A stretch of DNA of 64,000 bases, from assembly GCA_026874595.1 (NCBI GenBank), contig CM049320.1:11929964-11993963 (forward strand), written 5' to 3'. Numbering within the stretch: position 1 is the first letter of the stretch; each line of letters starts with the position of its first letter. The position numbers were made by a program, and so were the translations under genes. Below the pieces are notes generated by a model, which made no database searches, was not told the DNA's origin, and worked only from the letters and a program-made list of their open reading frames with translations. Origin of the DNA: Sipunculus nudus (Eukaryota > Annelida > Sipuncula > Golfingiida > Sipunculidae). This document shows positions 8,641-53,640 of the stretch, piece after piece.

Positions 8641-9743
8641 ACACAGATCTGATACCTAATATAGAATAAAGTTCACACCCCACTCTGACAGTGATGGAGC
8701 AGAGAAACTCCTCCAGAACCTGAACCCACATAAAGCCACAGGCCCTGATAAAGTCTATGCCTGGATACTCAAGGAAACTGCACCACAAATGGCACCAGCA
8801 CTGACACATCTCTTTCAGGCTTCCCAAAATCAAGAAATTCAAGATAGAGTACCAACCGAATTGAAATCTGCAAAAATCAGGCCACTTTTTAAGAAGGGAG
8901 ACAGAAGTGCACAGTAAACTACAGGCCAGTGTCACTACTGCTGTGTGCAGTAAGGTCATGGAACATGTCGTTCACAGCCACATCATCTGCCACTTGGACA
9001 GGCCTGGATAGCTGATAAAGCTCAGCATAGCTTCAGAAAGCAAAGCTCAACTGAGACCTTGTTGCGGATCCACAACTGTGATACATTGTTGACGGAGAGG
9101 AGCAGAGCGGATCGGAATCACACGTCTTGGGCCGAGACAAAACTGAGACCCAGCTAATCCTGTCAGCAAATGATCAAGCTCAGAGTACCGGTATTTCTCT
9201 TTGGGAGCCAGTGGACTGTTTATTGTTGGACCTTTCCAAAGCTTTTGATAAAGTCCCACACAACAGACCACTGATGAAACTTGACAATTATGGCATCAGG
9301 GGCAGTATCCTTCAGTGGATCACAAGTTTTTTCCTCAGTGAACCACACCCAAAATGTCGTCTTTAATAGTCAGTCATCGGCTGCAACCACAGTTTCATCT
9401 GGAGTTCAACAAGGTACTGTCTTAGGACCTCTCCCCTTCCTTGTCTAATAAAGTTATAAATGACTTGACTTCATCAGTTTTGTCTACAACTATATTTGCC
9501 AATGATTGCTTCAAGTGCAGAAGGATCAAGACACCAGAGGGCCAGGCAACCTTACATAGAGACCTTGACAATCTAAAGCAATGCGATGACAAGTGGCTCA
9601 TGAAATCAACACAGACAAGTTTGAAGTCTTACGAATCTGTCCAATCACCAGCAGGAAATCCCTTCTGCTTGCTGACTATAGTCGCTCCAAATATAATGGT
9701 AACTCAGAAGCACCCACTATCCGTAACTTGCACCATTATTTAA
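8640..9743 (+). pseudogene. Decayed non-LTR (jockey/CR1-type) reverse transcriptase
   Basis: Fragments in several frames follow the reverse-transcriptase order. First comes NPHKATGPDKVYAWILKETA with RVPTELKSAKIRPLFKKGD (about 8720-8905). Next are NYRPVS-like remnants and a FRKQSST block (to about 9055), then LLDLSKAFDKVPHNRPLMKL and YGIRGSILQWI (9220-9330). A SSGVQQGTVLGPL remnant (9396-9440) corresponds to the usual SGVPQGSVLGP motif, and a thumb-like KFEVLRICPI segment ends near 9735. Frameshifts and stops show that it is dead. The catalytic YxDD box is not intact (FANDC near 9495). No endonuclease domain or poly-A tail is visible. Confidence 0.85.
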
Positions 9744-16376: not shown

Positions 16377-19300
16377 AAGTGACCCATGGGTCATGACGCT
16401 CAGCTGACTGGGAAGAGATTCGCAAAAGGAAATTTTATCATCTGAATGGTAGTATATACCCATTCAACTGAAGCATCAAACAGATTAACCAACAGGCCAA
16501 AATTGTGTCTGTATTTATATATCTCAAAAATAGAGAAAAAATGTGTAAATAATATACAAGTGGCTCCACAAGTCTGCAGAAACTAATAAAAAGACTTAAT
16601 GGTCAATATGCATGCAAAGAATCATGGTGATCTCTGCATTAGTTGTTACAACTTGTGCCATGTAAACAGATGACAGCATCCTTAAAGGTCTCAAAAATAG
16701 AGAAAAAAATCGAAAAATTGAATAAAATATAGGTGGAACCACCAGTCTGCAGAAACTGATGAAACACTCCATAAACATTATCCATCCAAAGAATCATGGT
16801 GATCTCTGCATACTTCAGCTTTTGTATCAAATTGTTCATTATTCTGAGGGATACTTCGGAGTCCTATAGCTTAAAGGATATGGGTAACAGAGACCTAATT
16901 TCATTTTCCATGGAGACTTTTCATGGATCTCCCTGTGTGTCAAGAATGAAGATTCTAGATCCAGTTGTTATGATTTGTACCCTGTTGACAGATAATCACA
17001 TCTTTAAAGGTCTCAAAAATAGAGAAAAAAAATTGAAAAAATAGAGGTGGCACACCCAGTCTGCAGAAACTGATGGAACACCTCATGATCAATATGTATG
17101 CCAAAAATCATGACCATCAGTGTTGAAGTTATTGAGATACTGCAGTTTTTGTATCAAATTTTTCATAATTCTTAGGGATACTTCGGAGTCCTATAGCTTA
17201 AAGGATATGGGTAACAGAGACCTAATTTCATTTTCCATGGAGACTTTTCATGGATCTCCCTGTGTGTCAAGAATGAAGATTCTAGATCCAGTCTATACAA
17301 TTTGTGCCCTGTTAACAGATGTTCATATCTTTTAAGGTCGCAAAAGTAGAGAAAAAAATTCGTAAAAAAAAAAACGAACAAATATACGTGGTGCCATCAG
17401 TCTGCAGAAACTGATGAAACATTCCATGATCAATATCCATGCAAACAATTATGGTGATCTCTGCATTAGTTGTTCAGCTTTTGTATCAAATTTTCCATTA
17501 TTCTGAGCTGTACTTTGGAGTGCCATAGCTCAAAGGATATGGGTAACAGAGACCTAATTTCAGGTTTCCATGGAGACTTTTCATGGGTCTCCCCGTGTGT
17601 CAAGAATGAAGATTCTAGGTTCAGTCGTTAAGATTTGTACCCGGTTGACAGATAACTACATCCTTAAAGTTCTCATTAATAAAGAAAAAAAATTATAAAA
17701 ATTTGAAAAAATAAAGGTGGCGCCACCAGACTGCAGGAACTGATGGAACACCTCTTGATCAATATGTATGCCAAAAATCATGACCATCAGTGTTGTAGTT
17801 ATTGAGATGTTGCAGTTTTTTTTTATCAAATTTTCCATTATTCTGGGGGGTAATTGGGAGCCCCACAGCTCAAAGGATATGGGTAACAGAGACCTAATTT
17901 CAGGTTTCCATGGAGACTTTTCATGGGTCTCCCTGTGTGTCAAGAATGAAGATTCTAGGACCAGTATTTACGATTTGTGCCCTGTTAACAGATGTTTACA
18001 TTTTTAAAGGTCTAAAAATAGAGAAAACAATTCGTAAAATATCGAAAAATATAGGTGGCGCCACCAGTCTGCAGAAACTGATGAAACATCTAATGATCAA
18101 TATGTATGCCAAAAAATATGACCATCAGTGATGTAGTTAATGAGATTTTGAAGTTTTTTTTAATGAAATTTTTGACAATTCTGGGGGGTACTTTGGGGCC
18201 CCATAGCTCAAAGGATTTGGGTAACGGAGACCTAATTTCTGGTTTCCATGGAGACTTTTCATGGGTCTCCCCGTGTGTCAAGAATGAAGATTCTAGGTTC
18301 AGTCGTTAAGATTTGTACCCTGTTGACAGATAACTACATCCTTAAAGGTCTCATAAATAGAGAAAAAATTTTAACAATTTTAAAAAATAAAGGTGGCGCC
18401 ACCAGACTGCAGGAACTGATGGAACACCTCTTGATCAATATGTATGCCAAAAATCATGACCATCAGTGTTGTAGTTATTGAGATGTTGCAGTTTTTTTTA
18501 TCAAATTTTCCATTATTCTGGGGGGTAATTGGGAGCCCCACAGCTCAAAGGATATGGGTAACAGAGACCTAATTTCAGGATTCCATGGAGACTTTTCATG
18601 GGTCTCCCTGTGTGTCAAGAATGAAGGTTCTAGGTCCAGTATTTACGATTTGTGCCCTGTTAACAGCTGTTCACATTTTTAAAGGTCTAAAAATAGAGAA
18701 AACAATTCGTAAAATATCGAAAAATATAGGTGGCGCCACCAGTCTGCAGACCCTGATGAAACATCTAATGATCAATATGTATGCCAAAAATTATGACCAT
18801 CAGTGATGTAGTTAATGAGATTTTGAAGTTTTTTATGAAATTTTTGACAATTCTGGGGGGTACTTTGGGGCCCCATAGCTCAAAGGATTTGGGTAATGGA
18901 GACCAAATTTCTGTTTTCCAAGGAGACTTTTCATAGGTCTCTCACTGTGTCAACAAATGAAGATTCTAGGTCCAGTCTGTACGAATTTGTGCCCTGTTAA
19001 CAGATGTTCACATTTTTAAAGGTCTCAAAAATAGAGAAAAAATTCGTAAAAAATCGAAAAATACAGGTGGCGCCACCAGTCTGCAGGTACTGATGGAACA
19101 TCTCATGATCAATATGTATGCCAAAAATCATGACCATCAGTGATGTAGTTAACGAGATATTGAAGTTTTTGTATGAAAATTTTGACTATTCTGGGGGGGT
19201 ACTTTGGGGCCCAATAGCTCGAAGGATATGGGTAACAGAGACCTAATTTCTGGTTTCCAAGGAGATTTTTCATCGACCCTTTCCGTAAAAGATGTGAACG
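16377..19300 (+). repeat. Tandem array, period about 335 bp (8-9 units)
   Basis: Each unit carries, in order: ctcaaaggatatgggtaaca, a gtttccatggagacttttca block, gtgtgtcaagaatgaagatt, gccctgttaacagatg, an A-rich stretch, GGTGGCGCCACC or a variant, and agtctgcag. The ctgcag marker falls near 16573, 16751, 17060, 17403, 17731, 18069, 18407, 18744 and 19083, so spacing is about 310-345 bp after a short first unit. The palindrome is exact at 17716, 18054, 18392, 18729 and 19066. The left end (aagtgacccatgggtcatga, then GCTCAGCTGACTG) matches the left end of the single-unit element at 62922. Open frames of 60-80 codons recur per unit but shift frame between units, so I read them as chance. Confidence 0.88.
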
Positions 19301-33200: not shown

Positions 33201-36200
33201 CAACAGGCAAGGGTTGAGCAAACAGGAGAGTAGGAATCTGGACAGAATTATCAATGTACAGTGAATTGCCATTTATCTGACCATCTACTGGGACAAGTAT
33301 TTCTGTACAGATAAACAAACATCCAGGGATGGGGCCAGGTACCTGTACCTAGGTACACATTTCAGAGTACCTTGTACCTGTACCTGCTTCTAAAGTACCT
33401 GTACCTGGTACAAGTTACCCCAGGTACATTTTCATATTTTCAGTTGTTTTTTTTTTTTTTTGGTTTTTTTTTGTTCTCTTTAGTATTAAATTACCTGTAG
33501 TGTAAAATAATCAGCAAGCCATCAGTGCAATAAACTGCTCATGAACTGAATTGTTATCACACCTCTAGAATGGTCACATGTGTGAAATCAGCTGTAACCA
33601 CTAATTGAGCAAATCATTTGATTATACTGTACTTGGTGCATTTAATGAACATTTAGTACACAAATATCATGTTTGTGAAGTATGGTGCCATACAGTTAAT
33701 AAGCTCTCTTACTGTACTTGGTGTACTTAATGGACTTTCCGTAGATTTGAATTTCATGTTGGTGAATGTTTGCCATACATTTAATACGTTCTATTAAAAT
33801 ATACTTTAGCAAATGACTTCAGAATTATTTGATGGAAAAAAGGCATGTTAACTTGCATATATGTGAATTTATGCCGAAAAAGGTTTTTGAGGTGATCCTC
33901 AAATAAATGTACCTGTACCTAGGTACATTCTAAAGTACCTGTACCTGTACCTAGGTACTCTGTGAAAATCAAGTACCTGTACATGTACCTGTACCTGGCC
34001 AATTCTTAAGTACCTGTACCTGTACCTAGGTACTTTCACTTGTACCTGGCCCCGACCCTGCAAACATCCTGATGACTGTCAATGGCTAGAAGTGATATGA
34101 TGGGATCATTCTGTGATACATACCTGTATATACTGGCATACTACATTTGAAAAATCAAACATTTCCCTCAATATTATATCATTTTGAATTTTTCAAACAT
34201 TTTCAAAAGATCTCACTGAGTTAACAAAAATTGGTAATTTTCTCAAGTGAGTAGATCAGATCACACCCAGCAGGTGCAGTTTAAAGGAAGCTGGCAGAGT
34301 GTAAAACACTGAGAAATAATGTGCTTTTACACTTGCAGCTCCGCCACAGATTCAGTGACCCATGCTTCAATAAGTTGAAACAGAAGTAAAACCTTCAATC
34401 TGTTCTTTCCATTCAATAAATATTTATTTTAGATCAAAAGATTTTGGATAAAGGGTCATAATTTTGGTTCTCAATTTCAAACTTTGGTTTTGCAGATAAG
34501 TGGTGTTCAGATAAATGGCAAACAGCAGTATCTTACACTGAATGAGATATGTATTGAAAAAATATGCTCTATAAGATAGATAAGGATTATCCTTGAGAAG
34601 TGCTTGTAGGAATTGTACAAACTATGAGTGTCCAAGTGATAATTCATCATTTGGCATGACTACCTGTTAGTTTTCAGGAGGAAATATTTATTCTTGTTTG
34701 AAGTCATAACAAATGAGGTCGAAGTGACCTATTTTTATCAAAATTTAAGAATGCTCTGATCATCACATTTCCCAGACTGAAATTACAGCCATTAGTTTTG
34801 TTTATGATTGGTCACTGACTGATGTTTGAGGAAAATGGTATTCATTTTTCTAAACACTCAATTATTCTCAGATTCTATTGTGAAATTTGAGGAAATTGAC
34901 AAGAAATTCTACAGGGCAAGCTACACAGATAAAAAGTGCTGGTGATTATCACACTGAAACAAAATGTGACATACCAAAGATAAAACAAATAGAAGAGCCT
35001 TGATGTTACCATATAATGCAAAACATGTAAAAATAATGAAGAAACCAGTGGTGAATGTAATAACACAAACTCATCCAGAGACGTGCACATGTCTCTAGAG
35101 ATAAAATAAGACAACCAAGGGTTGTTCATAATAGCAGACCTACTAATTCTTAGCGAAAAATGGAAAAAGAGGTTACTGGTCTAATCAATAAACTAATTTT
35201 ATAAGTTATTATTATTATAACAGCAAAATGATCAGTCTTTATGACTTAATTTTAAAGTGGTAATGGCTAATATGTAGAATTCTATAAATATCAGACTAGA
35301 TGAACTAGAATACGGGAAGTAGACAAGCGACTGTGTATCCTCTGAAACCAGAGTAGGACAGGTGAAGTAAGGCATGGATTGAGTGGCAAGGGGAAATAAA
35401 GAGATGTGCATTGCATATTAGCAGGCATGTCTGCAGCAGAAATGTATATGTAGGTGGCGCCACCTGCCACAAAATTCAGAAAATTATCCAACTTGTATAC
35501 AATTGCAAGCTTTTAGGCAGATAAGTCAAACCACTGCCAAGATATGAGTGATGTTATCCCACGGCAGACAAACAAATGGACACTGTGTAAAAATGAACGC
35601 AGGTGGCCCCACCAGTTTTGCGTATGATTAAAAGCTATGTAAGATCTATACACAGGCAAAATTTCAGGAGGATATGTCAAACCAGTCCTGAGATACAAGC
35701 TTGGATGTCTGCAGCCTGAACAGGAAAGTAGGTGGCACCACCTGCCACAAAACTGAGAAAGCTATCCAAGATGTATATACATGCAAAATTTTAGGCAGAT
35801 AAGTCAACCACTGCTGAGATAGGTGTGATTTTATCCCACGGCAGACAAACAGACGGACACTGTGCAGAAATGGTTGCAGGTGGCGCCACCAGTTTTGCTT
35901 ATGATAAAGACCTATGTGTGATCTATATACATGCAAAATTTCAGGAGGATATGTCAAACCAGTCCTGAGATATAAGCTTGGATGTCTGCAGCCTGAATGA
36001 GAAAGTAGATGGCACCACCTGCCACAAAATCAAGAAACCTACCCAGGATGAATACAGATGCTAAATTTCAGACTGATAAGTCCATTCACTTCACAGATAT
36101 GAGTGATTTTATCCCAAGGCAAATGGACAGAAGGACATTGTGCAAAATCGTTGCAGGTGGCGCCACCATTTTTTATGTATGTTATAAAGCTACCCAAGGG

Positions 36201-39200: not shown

Positions 39201-42200
39201 AAAACACACACACGCACATTTGAACACTTTAATCATAATATCTGTAGTTGTTTAATCTTGATCATCATTCCTTAGGCTTAACACAGTGTTTCTTGATCTT
39301 TTTTGGTAATAGATGGTTGGTAAAATATCCCCCAGGCTTAACAATTACCAATTATAAAATACTTCCATTAATACATGTATTTCGGAATAATCATTATTAT
39401 TGCTGGATATGTGATCAAAGTCAAGCCTTATGAATATGCTTGACTTTTTAATGTTCTCTTTACATTAGACTTTTTATATTACACAGGACAGCTCTTTCAT
39501 AAAAACCTTTATGATTTAATTTGTCACAGAAATGCTATGTAAATATATACCCAGTGTTTAGCAAGAAGAGTTCTAACATCAAAATCCTACGTGAATATAA
39601 CTCAAAATTTCCATCTCTCAAACCTTTTAAATGGTTAGTGCAAAGCAAACATGGATGGAATACCTATATTGGCACTTGTACTAAATAAAGACAAATTTTC
39701 ATACTTTTTCCAAAAATATGAAAAATTTTTGTTATCAAGTTTATTAATGAGAGCACAAAAGCAGAACAAGAAAAGGTTGCGTTTCTTCACCATCCTTCAC
39801 CCATTTAGAATACAGATAGTTTTATAAAGCATCGTCCCTGTGCCCAATAACCCCCACCACCAATCCTTCTGTCACCAGGTTTTATAATGAAAAGTTTGAA
39901 TTTACTGCAAAGACTCTGTTAACAAAACATCTTCACACCCGGAAGGTAAGACCATTAACCATTTTAACCAAATAATTGCTACATAATATTCCTTCAAAAT
40001 TTCTCTTCCCTGTAATAAACAGCTACATTTGGTATAAAGGTATCTGCATCATTTAAATGGAATGAGCCACTCATAATAGTTGGATAGATGATGCTGTATG
40101 TTATCCAATATTCAATTACTAATTAATATATTGCAATTAAATCATATTAATCAGAAACATAGAAACTCTAGTATTTATGTAAATCCCCAACCTATGGAAA
40201 AGCAGTCTTTATTAAATAGGCTTTTGACAGGCATATATAGTAGAATACAATGGAACATTCAGATCAGAAGTATCTTCTGAGGACATCCCTAAATTAACAG
40301 CACAGGCCAATTTCACCTTTACACTCCATGGCTCATTCTAATTTCTTGGTATGATTTTTTAAATTTTTGATACACAGTTAAAAATTAAAATTCGACGCTG
40401 GTGAGATGGCTTAATATTGGACTAAGTGGTCTAATATGATACAACTGAATGCTGTGTGCAAGAGTAAAACATGTTTATTATTATTTTTAGTATATTGGTC
40501 AGACCAAACTTTTAAAAAGAAACATTTAAATAAGGCTGAGCATGTGATACTCCGGTTCAAATTGTTAGCATTGAGATTTCAATTCCATTTTTAAATATAC
40601 CTAAAATAATATAAAATGTAATTACTTAAACACCTTAGACAAAACAGTGTCATTTTTCTTTCAGTTAATGAAGCATACTTATTTTGTACACAATGCCCTT
40701 GTACAATACCGCTAAAATTCAATGGTCATCATGAGAAAATTGACTTTAATTGTATTCATTCATGCTGTTAACCTCAGGGGAGATTCATATGTTTGACCAA
40801 AATATCAAAAGTTTCTGTCAAAACCAATATAATCTGTTGTCGTCTAAAATGTTATTGGTTCCATTGTATTCTAAAATGACTGTCAATCTTGAATTACATT
40901 CTGTCTGAATCACAGACAGATCTAACTTGTGCAGAGCAAAGCAAAGAAACATAAAACAAAGGAGAAAATAAAACGTAACCACAACACTTACCAACAATGA
41001 TAATTATAATGATAAGAATAATGACTATCAAAATGATCCACATCTGAAATGCACAGAAAACAAATATTCATGCACATCAATATGCAAATGAAAATGCATC
41101 AGACAAATAACTACCCACAATGCAGTTTGTTTCAGTCATGTGACCATGCCTGACTGCCATATTTAGATGGGAACCAGACACAGTCACAAACAGTAGAACA
41201 CACAGGTACAACTCCATGATATGAAGGTTAATGCTTACAAAACCCAAGAAATAACAAATTCATCATATGACATAGTACCAAACATATAAAAAGGAAATAA
41301 AATTCAACCTGAACTAATTCTGATTTTCACTGATTCACATATCTCCCGAAAAGAAAATTCTGTTTTTTATTCATTTTAATTAATACATTATTTTAAACTT
41401 TTTTTGGAAGGGGGGGTTGTTCTGTTTGTGTGCTACTATTTACATGCTTGAGGAAGGGCAGACCTTAGCAGCTTTACACCAGTAATCAGTAAATAGTTCC
41501 AGTTTATCTCTAAAATCCATGTTAGGTCATGGATAGTGTTGAAATTCAAAATGGCATTTTTATAGAATATATAGAGTAAAACTTTCTCTAGAATATTTTT
41601 CTGGCCTCTCATGAACAGGTCAATAATTTCTTTCACAAAGAGTAAATTTTTCAAGAATGAATATAAATTGCACATTTCATTGGTAGCCAGTGACTGACAA
41701 ACCAAGGTCTGCAGGTCTTACCCAAGTCAACAACACATAGTGAACAGAAATACTACAACAGCTATTCAGGCTACACATTTATAACAGTCAGTCAAAGGGC
41801 AAGCGACAATTACCGCACTTACCAACAATTATTATTATGATGACAAGTATAATTCCTCCCAGAATTAACATCATCTGCAAAGTCATACATGGCATTATTA
41901 TCTCTCTTTAGCATTACTGTGCTATTATCACCATTGCAAGCTATAATTGGTACCTATATACTTGACATACTTTCATGTTATTCCCCTAAAATACTCATAG
42001 CTGGGACTGTTATTGTATTCACATTCACTGCCCAAGCATTAACATCTAGTTCTTCCTTATTTGAGTGTATGTGTGCAATATGACAAGGGGGACAATATAT
42101 GTAAGATCATTGTACACTAGAATGTGTCACATTTTCATAATGACTGACAGAGTATCTGGAATTCAGCTTGAGGACAACTTTGAAGTAATGAAGTTTGAAC

Positions 42201-45200
42201 ATGGACAGGTTTATATTTATACAAGGGGATGCATCATCTTACTTTCTCCAAAGCTAATCATTTGAATATGACTCAATGGTACCTTAATTTTTATGAATCA
42301 ACACATACCTTTAAAAATAAACAGGGATACATTTGAATATTTCATAGAATAGAGGAAAAGTTTGGCACAGAAAATGAAACATTTTTTTTCAAAGCTTCCT
42401 TTAATATAAGGGGGACATTATTTTTTTCAACTCTTCTGATAATGGCCTGTGAGGTATATACAGTGAACCATATAATGATGTTTCTAACTAAATGTCACTA
42501 TATTCCTTTTTTTGAATGGAGGATTTTATATGAAGTATATAAGGGTCTAGGAAAGTTGCACTGCCATTAAAACAGTCATACTGAGCAAAATAAATATTAA
42601 CTGTGGATCCTGATTACTTCATGATGTGCAATAACTGATTTTGCCAAATATAATCTGTACTGATATTTAAGGATCGTTGAGTCTGATTTAATAATTGTAT
42701 AATCATTACAGATCTTAACTGTATACAATTTTCAATTTATAGGACCTGAAGGGTAAATTATTTTTTTTTATTTTCATCCAGTCTTATATGGAGTTCCCTG
42801 TTCAAACCTTAGGACAAATTTAAGGAATGTTAAGGACCATAAGCATCAGATTTCATCGACCAATCTCCATATTAGTCATACAGTTTCTGAAGAATGGCTA
42901 AAATAGCGGTTTAATTTGTTCATCCAAACAACTGATGCTCCATCCTTTGCTGGTGAATTCACAAATTTAACCATGATCACTGGAGACTTCCGGGACTGGG
43001 AGAGGACATTATTTCGAGAGATCATATAGAGATTGAGACCACACTGCACAGAGGTACAATCAGACCTTTCACAGCTAAAATAACTTTTTTTAGCATTCAA
43101 CAATGATAATAGTGAAAGAGAGAACACAAATGCAAAATTTACGGACTTTCATGGACTTCTGGTTATTCTTATGCAAGTTTAACAATATTTATATATTTCA
43201 AATCTATAGTTTTGAAGTCTAGGACTTTCCTGGTTTTAAGGGGCCCATATAAACCCTGTTATAGTTCTACTAGACTGGATGGTTTACAGCTCTCACCTTT
43301 AGGTTCTTCCACCAGTATTTTCTCTTCAGCTTGCCTGCACTGGCCTCAAACTGGGATGCTCCTGCTTGCAATGCATCTGTGATGGACAAGCAGACAATGT
43401 TCATTCAACTGAGGAAGGGATGATATCAGTTCTTTATACAATAATAAAAAAAATTTCTTGCGCTATATCATGATATCTTTATATGAGTATCTGGAGCAGG
43501 AACTCCAGCACTTGCCTTCATATCTGTTCAAGGAATACTTATTAACCAGCAGATCCCTAGAGTTTTGAAGAAAGGGATTCTTTAAGTTTGTCTAACACTG
43601 TGATTTCTAACATACCAATACCCATATAATTTTTATTATAATAATTAATTCTATATAGAATTTCATATGATCCATTAAAATAAATGTCATCCCTGAAAAT
43701 AAATGATTCTCTTAACACAGAGAGACCCTTGTGATGCCAGTTATGCGATTATCTTAAGGTAATAATCCTAAAAAGGCTTATTATGGACAATATCTTTGGA
43801 CAAAAACACATATCACAATGATAAGGAAGTTAGCAGTACAATTATCAATGCTGTCACATATAAAAGCTTGAAAGACAGGTGTTCATTCAAACTGTGACCA
43901 TTCATGTAGATTTCACAGGGTAATTGCCCACTGATGTTTCTTACCTGCCCTGTCATCAAGTTCTGAAAGTTTTTGATCTCTCTCCAATACCTTGTCAACG
44001 TTCACTCTCATAATATCAACCACCTACAAATACATCAACAGCTAGGGTTATATTTACAATTATCATCAAGGCAGGAAATGTTTATGTGAGGATTCTGGTT
44101 CAAATCAACAAAGATTGCGCAAGTATATGATGTCAAAAGTGATACAAGTACTGGTATCCAATTTGCATCTATGCAATGTACAACCACAACTTATTCGCTA
44201 AAATATTAAGTAGCGATTAACTATAGTATATCTTCAGCAAGCTTGCTACCCAAAGAATACTCCTCCCCTGATATTTATCTTGGTCTTACTTCAAGTACAA
44301 ACAAAGAGTAAACCAGGTTTGTTATCTGTTTAATATTTAAGATCTTTCTGCCATGACCTCTCAAACAAAGAATGACAACTATATGAGCAAACCCCAAGAG
44401 TCTTTACAGTAAGTTACACAAAGTCTTGAAAACAGAGCAACCTGAACACAATAGTTTCATTTAAATTTTTCAACTTTAAATTAACTTATGTTTTGGCAGT
44501 TAATATTATTTCCTCAATATCATACAAGCTGCCAACAAGCAACCCTGACAGTACATTCCAACTTTTTTTTGTTAACTAGTGATTTGTAAGAACCTGACAG
44601 GTTCTCCTCCAGCAGTCTGTGCTGTCAGGTAACTAACCTCATCAACTTGGGCCTGTGTCTGCTGCAGTCTTTTGCTCTCCATCTGTCCACGAGGTGGTCC
44701 TCCTGGGCCCCCAGACCTGCCAATCAAAAAAAGACATTAAATAGTGACCCATTTTTAAGATACAGCCCATGTAAATGGTCATACAACTCATACAGGAAAC
44801 ACAAGCTGAAATCAAGATACATTATTACTACTCTAGCTACCATCAATTTACATCTATTTGCCATTTATTCATAAACCTAATAAACAAGGGAGGTTTTTAT
44901 TGGTGAGTGCATAAATGTAACCCAGTGTCATGTTTCTTTAATAACAGGTTTACTAGGTAGTTTAATAATATTAGCATAGTTCAAAAGATTATATAAAACT
45001 ATATATATATTCATGAATAAATGGTATGATCTACCTGGCTACAAACATTTCAAAAATTCATCTGATCTTACTATTTATCAATGACAAACTTCTTATCATA
45101 AGAACTTTATGGGTAATGAGGAGCCTGTGAAATGATATTTAACAGAATATGACAGATTTATAGAAACAATTTGTTAACCAGTTTAGATCCAATTAGGAAC

Positions 45201-48200: not shown

Positions 48201-51200
48201 ATTCAGTGTCCATGCATACAATATCAAGTTACATGCTTAATGTCTGCTTACTGATAACTGTTATTTCAAAAGCATTAAGTTCAATTTTACTTCCTTAATT
48301 CTATTTTATATGCTTCTCTTAAACCAATTAAACAGTGATTTTAAAATCCCACCCCATCCCACGTGTCATTTAAATCTCTTCAGAAAATTTTGACCAGCTT
48401 GGGAAAATATAACGCTGGCAATGATAGTGTAAGACTTATCATATTAAAAACTTCATTTCAGTAAAACAAGTATGGAGACTTGTTCTTTAGTTTCTTTCTC
48501 CCTTTCTGTTACATTCATGCCATTTTAAAACAACTAGATCTTGTCTAATTCAGATTATATATCAGTCAAGTCTTCCACAGCAGCTGTAATTTTGCTTCAT
48601 TCTTATAATGAAAGACATCAAACTTTAAACAACTTGAAAATAATAATTATTAATTTTCATAACAGTGAATGCTATAAAAGGCTACCATTTTTTTTTAAAT
48701 TTTCATGTATTAGGATAACCTCAAATTAGGACCATACGAAACTGGTTATTTATCAAATAAATTCTTAATGTAACTTTTTTTAAATAGGGATGATCAGAGC
48801 TGCTGATGTATACACATATCACATGACACAACACCAATCACATGACAACAGTGAGATCATGTGACTACTTACGGAGGCCCACCAGGGCCTGCTTGTGGGT
48901 TGGCCTGGGGTGGTGGAGCAGACCTACATATGTACAAAAAATGCAACTGTCAATCATGTCTTAACATCATGTAACTGTCAATCATGTCTTAACATCATGT
49001 AACTGTAAATAATGTCTAAACATCATGTAACTGTCAATCATGTCTAAACATCATGTAACTGTCAATCATGTCTAAACATCATGTATCTGCCAATCATGTC
49101 TTAACATCATATATCTGTCAACCATGTCTTAATATCATGTAACTGTCAATCATGTCTTAACATCATGCACCTGTCAATCATGTCTTAACATCCTGTAACT
49201 GTCAATCATGTCTTAACATCATGTAACTGTCAATCATGTCTTAACATCATGTAACTGTCAATCATGTCTTAACCCCATGTAACTGTCAATCATGTCTAAA
49301 CATCATGTAACTGTCAATCATGTCTTAACATGATGTAACTGTCAATCATGTCTTAACATCATGCATCTGTCAATCATGTCTTAACATCATGCATCTGTCA
49401 ATCATGTCTTAACATCATGCAACTGGCAATCATGTCTTTACATTATGTAACTGTCAATCATGTCTTAACATTATGTAACCATCAATCATGTCTTAACATC
49501 AGGTGAAACCACTGTTCCTTAGAACGCAAACCTTTGGTTAACCGCAGATATGAACTAGCTTTTTTTGCGCCAATACACCAAAGGTCAAATTACCGTCTAT
49601 TGGCTAACATAATAAGCTGAAGACTGTCAGTACTCCTACATCATAGTAAATGTAAGGGTTCACAAAATAGAATAGAATAAATTTATTCAGATAAGACCTC
49701 AGGCTCAAAGTGCAAAAAAAAAACCTCAACATAGTATTTCAATATAAATATCACATTGTCATTATGACAATTTTGATATTTATATTGCATAACTATGTTG
49801 ATGTTTCTTTTTTGAAATTTTAGGCCTAAGGCCTTAACCTGAATAAACTAATTTTCCTCTATTCAGGGTGCGCAAGTTTTACCAAACACCTGGATTTTTC
49901 CTTTGGTTTAACTCAGGCAGAGGAAAACAACCCAGGCTGGGTAAAATAGGTTTAACCCAATTTAAATGTAAACCCTGGTACCAACTGTTCATTATAATAC
50001 ACACCTATGGCTAACCTCAGATAACATGCAACCAGCTTTTTTGTGCCAATGGTACAGTTACTGCAAAGTGGTAAACAAATCAAGCTGAAGACTTGTAGTT
50101 TATCTGTCCAATAAAACAGTCATATTAAAATTTACACCAAGGAAATAGAAATATGTATTGTTTGAACATACCACATTTCTTCTTCTTTCATCATTGTGTA
50201 AACCTATATAGATGCAGTAAGAATGGACACTGGTCTGATCTAATTTGATGACTGCGTTATATTTAAATTTAATGTTCATTTCAGTGACAGCTGGCCAGGC
50301 AATATGTCCTTATCTTGTCTGGTAACCCATACACATTTAAATGATTTTATTATTAAGTCCATGGTGGTTGCCCATATTGACAACAGACCTGGCCCATGAC
50401 CATTCAATGCAACTGAAATATCAATATCACATGATTTTACAGCCCACGGAGCATGTTCTGTGGAGTGATGTGTATTTGGTGATCTGATGAACCAAGAGGT
50501 TCCTAGGTGAGAAGAATGTATTATTAATTTATTTTAAAGAATTGTTGCATTTCATGTATAGAGTAGCAACAGATTAAACTGGCAAATTAACATAGTTGCC
50601 GGCATTTTAATCAATTATTTTAGCTGTCCCAACTACAATAAATCTCTCCTATAAATTAGCAAACAGTTATGCGATATCTTCTGAGAAGGCTCTGATCAAA
50701 CGAATAATAGCCCAAGTTACTCTGGGCTGTATCACAGCTCAGCTGCTAATGTATGCCTCAATGACAATGCTACTTTTTAAATTATTTTAAGAATCATCAA
50801 TGCTGCTTCTCCAGCCCCGAATCAGTTAAATCAGGATTTTATCACAAAACAATCTGTTACCCTTACAGAGGAAATTGAATTTAAATAATTATATATTGCA
50901 GTTTTAGCACTGGTCCAGAGAGATCCAAAGCATATAATATACATATATGTATATAAATATATATCTAACTGAGCAGCCATGCCGAATGTTGTCAAGGGGC
51001 ACCACAGCTGCCACTGTGTGTCAGTGGTTGGAGATTTATGCTGGAATGACATAACCCACAGGTCCTGGCTCTAGCAGAGGTTGGGGTGAATGAAAATGGC
51101 ACCTCTGTATCAGGTATCTGTATTAAATGTGTACCATTGTTTCATCCCTTGGGTTAAAAATGGAGCATTTGAATAGGACAGTAATGGTTTAATGATCAAA

Positions 51201-53640
51201 TTTTCAATGGATAAATATTATTGTTCAATTGTATAGTTGTGTTTACCATGTATTAGTGATAGGTACTACCAACTACAGTGACAATAAATGGGATTCCAAA
51301 AAAATAAACAATTTAGGAGCCCATTCTTGTGGGCTACTAGTAAAGACACCCCTGTGTATGAGATTGCAGGTTCAAACATGGCCGAAAGTCGGAACTAGAC
51401 CAAGTTGTTGTGAATGACTATGTTATAAGTGATATGAAAATTTATGATTGTAATGAGTTTACGTCAGGATTCAATGCGTGTGTGATTCCCGCCTTTGGAT
51501 ATGATTACGTCAAGTTTCAATGATGGTGTGATTCCCGCCTGGGAATATGATTGGTTGATGAGAGAAATGCGCAGTGAGGAGCGAATGGTCATCCCTGAGT
51601 GCTAGCGGCAGAGCCCTGTAACTGGACGTGAAAGTAAGTGCTACAGTTGTGGCTCTCAGAGTCACAGACGAACGGACCATGTTTATCTTTTAACCAGCAG
51701 GTGGGGTGCTATAAACTACTGTGAAGCACTTGAATGGCCCTGTCTATTCGGTCTCTGTTGCTTCAGTCAGCAGGATACATGTACCTCATTATTATCTGGG
51801 TGGACCACAGTGTTAGCCGATAATGTAATTAATGAACCCCACTGGTTGAAACTTACAGTGTCAGAGTTGTCAGTGGCCTTGTTGTAGAAACCACAACTGT
51901 GATACTCCATTCATCGTTATGGTAATAATTTGTAAAATTAGGCTATGTAATGATGAAATGGTATTTATAAGGTTTAAAACAAATATGATAAACAGACAAA
52001 ATATACACATCAAAATATATCTGTTTGTGCCTTTGGTAATAAATGAGTCTTTCACACAATATAAGCATATTCTTGCCTTAACATTTTAATCAGTTATCCA
52101 CCAAATGATCTTTGAAGGCACTGTTAGCCAATTCAAAGCATCATTGTGATATTGCCTATAAACAAGGCAGCTTCTAGAAATATTGGGTTTGTGAAGGGCA
52201 ACTTTGCAACATTACACTGGTGCTATCACCATCACGTTTCATAAAATGACCAAGGAAATTATCCTAGGACATCATCAAGGTCACTTCACACATATATTTA
52301 TATATGATTTACAAAGGGTTAGTATGGCCAAACTCAAGACACTGATGTTAAGGGGCAGAGCTAAAGAATAAAGCGTCTCAGGACAAGCCCAGTAGTGGCA
52401 ACACTCACTGGGACCCAACACACGGTGTCATACAATTTATTGCAAGTGCTGCGCAGCCAACACCCAGCAAACCAAAAGCTCAGTAAAACCAAAGCAGATT
52501 GGCTGAGTCTGTAAACCAAGATGGCAAGCCCCTTGTGCGGCACTGCAAGAGAGGAAATTTGCAAACAGTGGGGGATAACTGACCTCAGGCCACACCAGCA
52601 AGTTAGTATAGAGACTGTCTTGAAAGGTGATGATTGCATCGTGTGTGTTTCAACAGGGGTAGACAAGGTCTGTACTCCCTGAAACCTTCGACCAGAGTGC
52701 AAATCAACTGGCACCTCCAAGAACCTGCCATGTGATTGGTAAAATTTTACGCAGGAGGGAATTCAACAGAGAAAGCACCACCTGGTGGCAAAACCTGACG
52801 TGCAGCAGCTACAGCAAAGCGAATAGATGAGCATAGTGTACCCGCTGCTTTTGGAGTATAAACTGAGTCTAGGTTGCTCAAGACCACTTGTGTATATTAC
52901 GGTAACTATTGGGTAGTATCATGCTTGTGTATGGAGCTTGTTGTCACTAAGGAATGATTGCAGTCTATTAGAAGTGAATCCAAGAAAAATATAAATATCT
53001 ACATTATCAACCTTTCTGAATCATGAAGACGAGATTTTGTAATCATTCAATATATACTTATCAGTATATATACTTATCATATATACTTCAGTCTATAGAC
53101 TGGCCCAATTCGTTCATTTCAGTTAGCATGAAGGGAATACAAATAACAACAATATCACTGATCATAATCAGTTAACATGAACAGAATACAATCATATATT
53201 GTCAATAACAACAATATTGTTATTATTTGACTCTGCATACTAAATTTATGTTATCATGGTCAACATATGCCAGCATACTGGCCACTGAGTTTAACACCAA
53301 CTTTGGCTGAGAAGCCAGCTTCAACTTCGGGCCTTTACAAAATTACAGTTAAACCAGTGAATGTTTTTTCCACGACAATTCCACCCTCATTCTCAAGCCG
53401 GGTGGCCAAGAAGATCGATTCATATCTAGACGACCTGGGTCATTTCTTGGAAAAGCTTTTTCTCCTGGGCAAGGAGTGGTACATGGGGCCAATCTTATAG
53501 ATATTTAGATTTTATCTGTATCATCGGATCATACACTAGGGATATACTCACATTTTTTTTCCAGAATTTCGGTGCAGGAAGGTTTTCAACTGAACTGATC
53601 TGACAGGAAAACAAAGATGGCGGATATAATGTAGTCTGAT
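24259..53640 (-). CDS. Neuronal synaptobrevin / VAMP (VAMP1/2-type R-SNARE), complete
   Basis: Vesicle R-SNARE that pairs with syntaxin and SNAP-25 to drive exocytosis. Exons: 53640?-53552 (5' UTR plus AT), 48923-48873, 44716-44638, 44023-43945, 43376-43297, then either 41874-41823 (6a) or 41043-40992 (6b), and 24290-24259 plus 3' UTR. All junctions are GT...AG in phase. The product is 124 residues: a Pro/Gly-rich N-terminus (1-29), a SNARE motif (about 34-88) with zero-layer Arg59 in [21 protein letters not shown] with the Gln79-Phe80 bond that matches human VAMP2 Gln76-Phe77, the juxtamembrane [12 protein letters not shown], one TM anchor and a short tail [10 protein letters not shown]. Human VAMP2 is 116 residues. 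The sequence identity is unmistakable from recalled family knowledge. The TM exon choice and the split start codon are covered in separate entries. The gene spans about 29 kb. Confidence 0.95.
27765..28460 (+). repeat. Degenerate short tandem repeat, tctggtctgactcaaaccac type
   Basis: About 700 bp of loosely repeated 20-30 bp phrases combining (t)ctggtctgact with (c)aaaccac or taaccac. Copies diverge strongly and spacing varies. No fixed period could be set by eye. Confidence 0.7.
30290..30960 (+). repeat. Degenerate short tandem repeat, caaactgctcttg type
   Basis: Phrases such as tctcaaactgctcttg and agttattattcc recur every 30-50 bp. The last copies (about 30850-30940) are nearly identical 43-bp units containing tatcaagaactgctcttgac. 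A second degenerate satellite in the same intron, unrelated in sequence to the one at 27765-28460. Confidence 0.7.
33324..34060. mobile_element. hAT-type MITE with GTACCT subterminal repeats and intact TSD
   Basis: The ends are 19-bp terminal inverted repeats, CAGGGATGGGGCCAGGTAC and (reverse complement of the right end) CAGGGTCGGGGCCAGGTAC, 17 of 19 equal. An exact 8-bp target-site duplication CAAACATC flanks it (33316-33323 and 34061-34068). CAGGG ends and 8-bp duplications are diagnostic of the hAT superfamily. Within 110-160 bp of each end the hexamer GTACCT or AGGTAC is repeated many times on both strands, probable transposase binding sites. The core is AT-rich with no transposase, so it is non-autonomous. 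Confidence 0.9.
35309..36330. repeat. Dispersed repeat with GGTGGCGCCACC, copy 4
   Basis: Same orientation as the copy at 12438-13265: starts tacgggaagtagacaagcga and continues with blocks of about 180-290 bp sharing gataagtcaa(a)ccactgc and cggcagacaaaca. Exact palindromes at 35453, 35879 and 36156. It fades out near aggtcaaaggtcaacgc without the usual inverted-repeat end. Lies in a VAMP intron. Confidence 0.75.
40992..41043 (-). CDS. VAMP exon 6b: transmembrane anchor, version 2
   Basis: 52 bp, acceptor atttcag, donor gtaagtgttg. Encodes [17 protein letters not shown] plus one base. 12 of 17 residues equal exon 6a, but both glycines are replaced (Ile, Val) and Met2 becomes Trp, so the helix is almost pure Ile/Leu/Val. 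The acceptor and donor are as good as those of 6a. It lies 779 bp downstream of 6a and evidently arose by tandem exon duplication. Confidence 0.88.
41823..41874 (-). CDS. VAMP exon 6a: transmembrane anchor, version 1
   Basis: 52 bp, acceptor tttgcag, donor gtaagtgcgg. Encodes [17 protein letters not shown] plus one base. Closest to the vertebrate VAMP2 anchor start (MMIILG) and keeps two glycines. Phase 0 in, phase 1 out, identical to exon 6b. Confidence 0.93.
43297..43376 (-). CDS. VAMP exon 5 (SNARE C-terminal half, juxtamembrane)
   Basis: 80 bp, acceptor catcacag, donor gtgaga. Encodes [20 protein letters not shown] then YWWKNLK. It retains the Gln-Phe bond and the two juxtamembrane Trp residues. 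Ends in phase 0 and is followed by two competing TM exons. Confidence 0.97.
43945..44023 (-). CDS. VAMP exon 4 (SNARE core with zero-layer Arg)
   Basis: 79 bp, acceptor tttgtag, donor gtaaga. Encodes [20 protein letters not shown] then ELDDRA. Arg59 in LERDQ is the ionic zero-layer residue (Arg56 in human VAMP2). Confidence 0.97.
44638..44716 (-). CDS. VAMP exon 3 (start of SNARE motif)
   Basis: 79 bp, acceptor gattggcag, donor gttagt. Encodes [15 protein letters not shown] then [11 protein letters not shown], the first heptads of the R-SNARE helix. Phase 2 in, phase 0 out. Confidence 0.95.
44717..48872 (-). other. VAMP intron 2
   Basis: 4.2 kb of AT-rich DNA. No exon, RNA gene or repeat with clear boundaries seen. 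Confidence 0.5.
48873..48923 (-). CDS. VAMP exon 2 (Pro/Gly-rich N-terminus)
   Basis: 51 bp, acceptor tatgtag, donor gtaagt. Supplies the G of the start codon, then [16 protein letters not shown] and two bases of the next Pro. This low-complexity N-terminus is typical of VAMP1/2. The acceptor lies 17 bases from a 28-bp minisatellite. Confidence 0.9.
48941..49500 (+). repeat. 28-bp minisatellite, about 20 copies
   Basis: A 28-bp unit containing aactgtcaatcatgtcttaa and ending acatcatgt, repeated head to tail for 560 bp with scattered substitutions. It lies in VAMP intron 1, ending 17 bases before the exon 2 splice acceptor (minus strand), so it occupies the place where the branch point should be. 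Confidence 0.95.
49505..50110 (+). repeat. Direct repeat pair flanking the palindromic MITE
   Basis: Words accactgttc, ggttaacc-cagat, actagctttttt, gcgccaat and aagctgaagact in the left copy recur in order in the right copy as accaactgttc, ggctaacctcagat, accagctttttt, gtgccaat and aagctgaagact. The insert between them includes the MITE and an additional stretch of about 110 bp. Confidence 0.6.
49670..49864. mobile_element. Palindromic (foldback) MITE, 195 bp
   Basis: The left half, gaatagaataaatttattca then gcaatataaatatcac-type sequence, recurs as the reverse complement of the right half, with mismatches. Shared words in order: GAATAGA, TTTATTCAG, AAGRCCT-AGGC, CAACATAGT, CAATATAAATATC, attgtcat. 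The two arms meet near 49765. No coding. Two diverged copies of a repeat of about 130 bp (49505-49650 and 49983-50110) flank it. Confidence 0.75.
51312..51395 (+). repeat. tRNA-like (SINE-head-like) sequence
   Basis: tgggctactagtaaagacac resembles a pol III A box with D arm; gattgcaggttcaaacatgg, about 45 bases later, resembles a B box (GGTTCAAA). No acceptor-stem pairing, so it is not a functional tRNA; a tRNA-derived SINE fragment is the likely reading. Confidence 0.35.
51459..51551 (+). promoter_or_regulatory. Two direct 45-bp repeats with CRE-like TACGTCA
   Basis: TTTACGTCAGGATTCAATG at 51459 and ATTACGTCAAGTTTCAATG at 51504 each continue to gtgtgattcccgcct and ggaatatga. An inverted CCAAT (attgg) follows at 51551. 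The layout resembles an enhancer of a retroelement LTR or a promoter, but no element ends or downstream gene were found. It lies in VAMP intron 1. Confidence 0.35.
53552..53640 (-). CDS. VAMP exon 1: 5' UTR and first two bases of the start codon
   Basis: The exon ends in eight A then AT, directly followed by the donor gtgagtat (53551 down). Exon 2 begins G TCT GCT, so splicing creates ATG TCT GCT (Met-Ser-Ala) with A at -3. No other in-phase upstream ATG is needed. The 5' boundary is approximate: it is set only by a YY1-type motif, and no TATA box is evident. Confidence 0.7.
53614..53623 (+). promoter_or_regulatory. YY1-type motif AAGATGGCGG near the VAMP start
   Basis: AAGATGGCGG, equal to CCGCCATCTT on the VAMP strand, is the classic YY1 core often found just downstream of transcription starts in TATA-less animal promoters. 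It lies about 60 bases before the exon 1 donor. A GC box (gggcggg on the minus strand) lies near 53710, about 90 bases further upstream. Confidence 0.45.

Follow-up and report, generated by a model that had tools for sequence, protein, structure and literature searches.

Splicing that exchanges the membrane anchor of a SNARE protein has been described for syntaxins. The Caenorhabditis elegans unc-64/syntaxin gene carries exons 8a/8b (UNC-64A/B), which are alternative anchor exons of one SNARE gene, keep the anchor length equal and change part of it; according to the cited passages, these exons are tissue-specific and the switch is under UNC-75/CELF control (PMC4946901). Splicing of vertebrate Stx3 also alters a SNARE transmembrane sequence, although in STX3A/STX3B, again a syntaxin, the SNARE motif and the anchor change together (PMC11119284). 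In SNAP25 of vertebrates, one SNARE gene has a tandemly duplicated exon (5a/5b), and mutually exclusive splicing of the two gives forms that differ in function (PMC2581893). Among the synaptobrevins, VAMP1 varies its extreme C-terminal region by splicing (PMC3123573), as the initial annotation of the present locus had noted, Drosophila n-syb variant J has a different C-terminus (PMC6025963, the passages on it being silent on an anchor change), and exon-skipping variants are reported for VAMP7; in the passages cited, neither the VAMP1 variants nor n-syb variant J are described as a homologous anchor-exon swap. We have now analysed a window of 64,000 nt from the annelid Sipunculus nudus (GCA_026874595.1, contig CM049320.1, positions 11,929,964 to 11,993,963) and found on its minus strand a VAMP/synaptobrevin gene with two homologous, frame-equivalent exons, 6a and 6b, which encode alternative membrane anchors.

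In unc-64, a syntaxin t-SNARE gene, the alternative exons are 3′ exons and, as far as the passages on it go, only the last 14 residues vary, whereas here a v-SNARE gene has internal alternative exons and a common last exon, and it is the membrane-entry half of the anchor that varies. The SNAP25 pair encodes another region of its protein. SNAP-25 itself is not known to have a C-terminal anchor of the VAMP type. An anchor swap by splicing in a VAMP was not found among the matches listed in our literature searches, which covered open-licence papers, with subscription papers mostly outside them and no transcript database searched. The earlier statement that no swap of a transmembrane core had been described is consequently tenable for VAMPs within those matches but not for SNAREs at large, given the syntaxins unc-64A/B (PMC4946901) and STX3A/B (PMC11119284). 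Anchor swapping by splicing is already known in syntaxins, and the VAMP case appears new, as judged from the literature matches listed.

Both exons are 52 nt long, are separated by 779 bp and have the same phases (0 in, 1 out); their coordinates and translations agreed with the initial annotation. They are identical at 38 of 52 bases (73%), and a repeat finder reported them as a 65-nt direct repeat which includes the splice sites and is 77% identical. Both share the first codon, the final seven bases of the exon, the seven bases of the donor and the three intron bases that precede the exon. Ten of the 17 codons differ, five synonymously and five nonsynonymously, and only one of the five changes in codons 8-17 alters the residue. 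The residue changes from 6a to 6b are M96W, L97I, G100I, G101V and V105I (VAMP2 numbering), four of them within the first seven anchor residues. The acceptors and donors of both exons had been called strong, which was borne out for the donors (each with a 7/9 match to CAG|GTRAGT) but not for the 6a acceptor, which is moderate with 10/16 pyrimidines; that of 6b has 12/16 and the other acceptors of the gene have 9 to 12. The exon pair is genuine.

Exons 2 to 7 of the gene were located from splice signals and frame, as follows.

48923-48873, minus strand: VAMP exon 2, 51 nt, frame-neutral, encodes a proline/glycine-rich N-terminus; acceptor tacatatgtag, donor CC|gtaagt
44716-44638, minus strand: VAMP exon 3, start of the SNARE motif, alignable to VAMP2
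44023-43945, minus strand: VAMP exon 4, alignable to VAMP2
43376-43297, minus strand: VAMP exon 5, last residues WWKNLK, ends in phase 0
41874-41823, minus strand: exon 6a, canonical anchor, Gly kept at VAMP2 position 100
41043-40992, minus strand: exon 6b, alternative anchor, Gly100-Gly101 replaced by Ile-Val and Met96 by Trp
24290-24259, minus strand: exon 7, luminal tail common to both forms, begins with V through the split codon G|TA

For exon 1 there is only a candidate donor, AT|GTGAGT at 53553, a kind of site for which a rough hand estimate predicts some 0.6 chance occurrences in 11 kb; AT|G was taken as the start codon when both full products were assembled. The spliced 6a and 6b products have 124 residues each, and PF00957 is the only Pfam domain in either of them (117.5 bits for the 6a form and 116.8 bits for the 6b form, cut-off 26.4). 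Both exons thus fit between exon 5 and exon 7, as had been proposed, and both products are full VAMPs by this domain. Among solved chains, VAMP2 2kog comes closest to the 6a form (E 7.5e-49). The single C-terminal anchor immediately after WWKNLK in a short protein is of the VAMP1/2/3 type, and both normal products have the same SNARE motif, juxtamembrane WW segment and luminal tail.

When exon 5 is joined directly to exon 7, with both anchor exons skipped, the product is a soluble VAMP ending WWKNLKYGL-stop, and when both exons are included, the 6a anchor is followed by a frame-shifted tail of 97 residues (if exon 7 is the last one and is not spliced further). The normal tail and protein result only from the choice of one of the two. 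From the sequence it is likely that both exons are spliced in alternately. The part of the initial annotation that concerned two alternative anchors is well supported, whereas the toggling in vivo and its effect on fusion kinetics are what we infer from it.

Candidate stretches comparable to the two exons were defined by the pattern YAG...GTRAG, an open frame, phase 0 to 1 and a length of 40-100 nt, and were scored by the number of core-hydrophobic residues in their best 15-residue stretch. Exon 6b scored 15/15 and exon 6a 13/15; of the 16 stretches of this kind in the window, the two that followed had 11 and 10. In a same-genome control of 200 kb (20 stretches, both strands) none of the 75 candidates reached 12 and four had 11, and in 400 simulated 19-kb single strands the mean number was 0.0025 at a score of at least 13 and 0 at a score of at least 14, under a dinucleotide Markov model which underestimates microsatellites. 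These data bear on the explanation that 6b is only a chance AT-rich stretch resembling an exon. ATT-rich simple sequence does code for poly-Ile, and a repeat of this kind elsewhere matches a portion of 6b, but 6b agrees with 6a in length, in phase, in its first codon, in the last seven bases of the exon and in seven bases of the donor, and no same-genome candidate was equally hydrophobic (0/75), which makes this explanation exceedingly improbable. A chance microsatellite was rejected on the grounds of phase, length, the match of the splice flanks and the 200-kb control.

Alternatively, 6b may have arisen by an old duplication and now be decaying or drifting, with little or no inclusion in transcripts. 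The loss of the conserved Gly100 and the gain of Trp could result from drift. On the other hand, the frame of 6b is open, its acceptor is intact and richer in pyrimidines than that of 6a, and its donor is the same. Simulated unconstrained divergence with 14 substitutions left the sequence open and wholly nonpolar in 0.4% of cases when started from 6a and in 0.4-0.5% when started from 6b. Moreover, the 60-nt flanks of the two exons, compared without gaps, showed no evident similarity past the splice sites, and the duplication is therefore not recent, unless the exon alone was copied. We consider drift of an unused duplicate improbable, though less so than a chance origin, and 6a and 6b very probably represent a functional choice of anchor, as far as sequence can tell.

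Several observations weigh against such a choice. If half of the changes occurred on the 6b branch, i.e. with 7 substitutions, 6-7% of unconstrained sequences are still open and nonpolar, so that the constraint test is weak in that case and drift is correspondingly easier to accept. With the peptide fixed, the DNA identity of 6a and 6b exceeds that of synonymous recoding only to a small degree (38 vs mean 34.1, P = 0.04), though it is much higher than after codon shuffling (P = 5e-5). Exon 6b is of low complexity and rich in ATT/ATC/ATA, and a 45-bp part of it is 87% identical to an AAT-type simple repeat on another contig. Finally, double inclusion produces no early stop.

Further copies of the anchor exon were also sought. 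A pattern derived from both exons matched only 6a and 6b within the window (0.03 matches expected); since it was built from these two exons, it excludes a close third copy in the window and provides no independent check. Between the two exons, a frame-compatible hydrophobic stretch at 41308-41239 (minus strand, 11/15) was rejected as probably due to chance: its acceptor has 5/16 pyrimidines, its donor matches at 5/9 positions and no evident likeness to 6a or 6b was seen. A second genomic copy of 6b was similarly discarded, the one partial match, on contig C4, being a simple AAT-type repeat with translations around it that contain no VAMP. The DNA around 6a is single-copy in the genome, and so is that around 6b, apart from one repeat match.

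The exchange alters mainly one half of the anchor. By the count used in Table 1 of Dhara et al. (2016), Val and Ile make up 3/9 (33%) of residues 95-103 in 6a and 6/9 (67%) in 6b. The other half, residues 105-112, has 8/8 in both. The small residue at position 100 is present in 6a (Gly) and replaced in 6b (Ile), whose anchor contains no glycine at all and has an interfacial Trp. The peptides were thus exactly as the initial annotation had characterized them, a glycine-containing anchor and an Ile/Leu/Val-rich one with an interfacial Trp. The values for residues 95-103 given in the cited part of that paper are 22% for syb1, 33% for VAMP3, 44% for syb2, 73% for VAMP7 and 77% for VAMP8 (PMC4972536); 6b is closer to the values of VAMP7 and VAMP8 and below both.

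Engineered VAMP2 anchors offer the nearest functional comparison. Replacement of the N-terminal anchor half by Ile (polyI-Nt) sustains secretion and accelerates release events, whereas polyL in the N-terminal half slows them and polyL in the other half has no effect, as reported in the passages of Dhara et al. (2016) cited here (PMC4972536). The cited passages of Hastoy et al. (2017) describe Gly100 as a hinge and as the anchor residue with the strongest conservation, and report that the double mutation G100V/C103V almost abolishes evoked exocytosis (PMC5460238). In polyI-Nt and G100V/C103V, as in 6b, beta-branched residues fill the outer-leaflet anchor half or stand in for its small residues; these are laboratory mutants, whereas 6b is a natural exon. 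Judged by its residues, 6b resembles polyI-Nt, yet it also has a change akin to the harmful G100V. The link between anchor and function has become more specific than first claimed, since all but one of the five changes lie within the anchor half in the outer vesicle leaflet, which was shown to control the pore (Dhara et al. 2016), but the two main papers disagree on the direction of the effect.

Not all of this evidence speaks for an effect on the pore. Ile occupies position 103 in both forms, and a second small residue is therefore absent from both. In the mutants described in the cited passages, G100L alone had no effect (Dhara et al. 2016, PMC4972536) and G100V alone only partly lowered hormone release (Hastoy et al. 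2017, PMC5460238). Given these two results, an effect of 6b might go either way; we lean to faster dilation because the whole half is altered.

The exons could also be alternatively spliced for the sake of sorting or tissue fit, if the glycine-free Ile/Val anchor with its interfacial Trp suited a membrane that differs in packing, sterol or partner proteins, as was suggested for UNC-64A/B. The anchor of cellubrevin/VAMP3 also starts with MW in Table 1 of Dhara et al., which favours this explanation, but in the same cited passages five VAMP2 anchor mutants (polyL, polyV, polyI, polyL-Ct and polyL-Nt) reach the granules with similar efficiency (PMC4972536), and four of the five changes in 6b lie within the pore-governing half. 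A sorting function appears to us rather doubtful, and we favour, with some reserve, the view that 6a and 6b are a mutually exclusive pair which tunes the fusion pore, its function being inferred. Under this proposal, the anchor exon of a single synaptobrevin gene of the VAMP1/2/3 type would have been duplicated in tandem long ago, and the spliceosome would place one of the two copies between exon 5 and exon 7. The anchors of the resulting forms would differ chiefly in their cytoplasmic-leaflet half, with the Gly100 hinge and few beta-branched residues in 6a and a glycine-free, beta-branched sequence in 6b. The switch would set fusion-pore behaviour, presumably through regulated splicing of both exons in vivo and differing use among cells. 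Most likely, 6a would be the synaptic-type form, and 6b the one that dilates fast or serves large vesicles or non-neuronal cells.

A protein search of the 1.43-Gb assembly with the 6b form (exon by exon, E up to 1, heuristic, exons 6a, 6b and 7 being too short or simple for rows of their own) gave 11 matches. Four of them were exons 2, 3, 4 and 5 of this locus with 90-96% identity (exon 2 at E 0.5), and the remaining seven lay elsewhere in the genome with at most 52% identity. A Pfam search of the genome also yielded 11 matches, one of which was this gene. No second gene of the VAMP1/2/3 type was seen in this heuristic assembly search, which is no proof, and this is consistent with splicing in one gene taking the part of the vertebrate paralogues. 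Tentatively, the choice of anchor exon in one gene may replace the separate VAMP genes of vertebrates and set pore behaviour cell by cell: 6a, VAMP1/2-like and glycine-hinged, would serve small synaptic vesicles, and 6b, with its VAMP3-like MW start and beta-branched residues nearly as frequent as in VAMP7/8, large or fast-dilating granules.

Possible regulatory elements were also looked for around the pair. The hexamer TGCATG, which we take to be an Rbfox-type motif, occurs at 41074-41069 (minus strand), 26-31 nt before 6b, and 13 such sites are present within 24-49 kb; the copy upstream of 6b may be a regulatory site and is a lead only. TGTTGT, which we assume, speculatively, to be linked to UNC-75/CELF, starts at 40986 (minus strand) just past the 6b donor and is one of three such sites within 40.5-43.4 kb. 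In a scan for a base-pairing switch over 40700-43300 (intron 5, the 6a-6b intron and slightly past 6b, with the 16.7-kb last intron outside the scan), only scattered imperfect inverted repeats of 14-25 nt were seen, none of them convincing. Rfam gave no match in the window at gathering scores.

Other features of the gene and its surroundings were observed. Exon 2 may be a second splice choice of the VAMP gene: exons 2 and 3 both start with GTCTG, and skipping exon 2 gives an alternative valid N-terminus, MSGGPGG instead of MSAPPPQ. A minisatellite at 48941-49501 (28-bp unit, 20 copies, 91% matches) starts 18 nt ahead of exon 2, whose acceptor it might influence. The intron ahead of exon 7 is 16,701 bp long, and a tandem array at 35450-36173 (units of about 277 bp) sits inside this 6b-7 intron; another array was found at 16646-19273 (units of about 337 bp), and the consensus units of both contain GGTGGC(G/A)CCACC. 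A weak reverse-transcriptase match at 9082-9366 (PF00078, 20.8 bits vs cut-off 29.6) is probably a retroelement remnant, and a 383-residue open frame at 812-1963 on the minus strand has no Pfam match at E 0.001.

Whether a SNARE anchor is a mere tether or an active shaper of the pore has been argued from engineered mutants, on which Dhara et al. and Hastoy et al. diverge as to Gly100. If the proposal is true, a natural splice pair that alters little but this half of the anchor would be evolution's version of the experiment, testable in the animal's own secretory cells.
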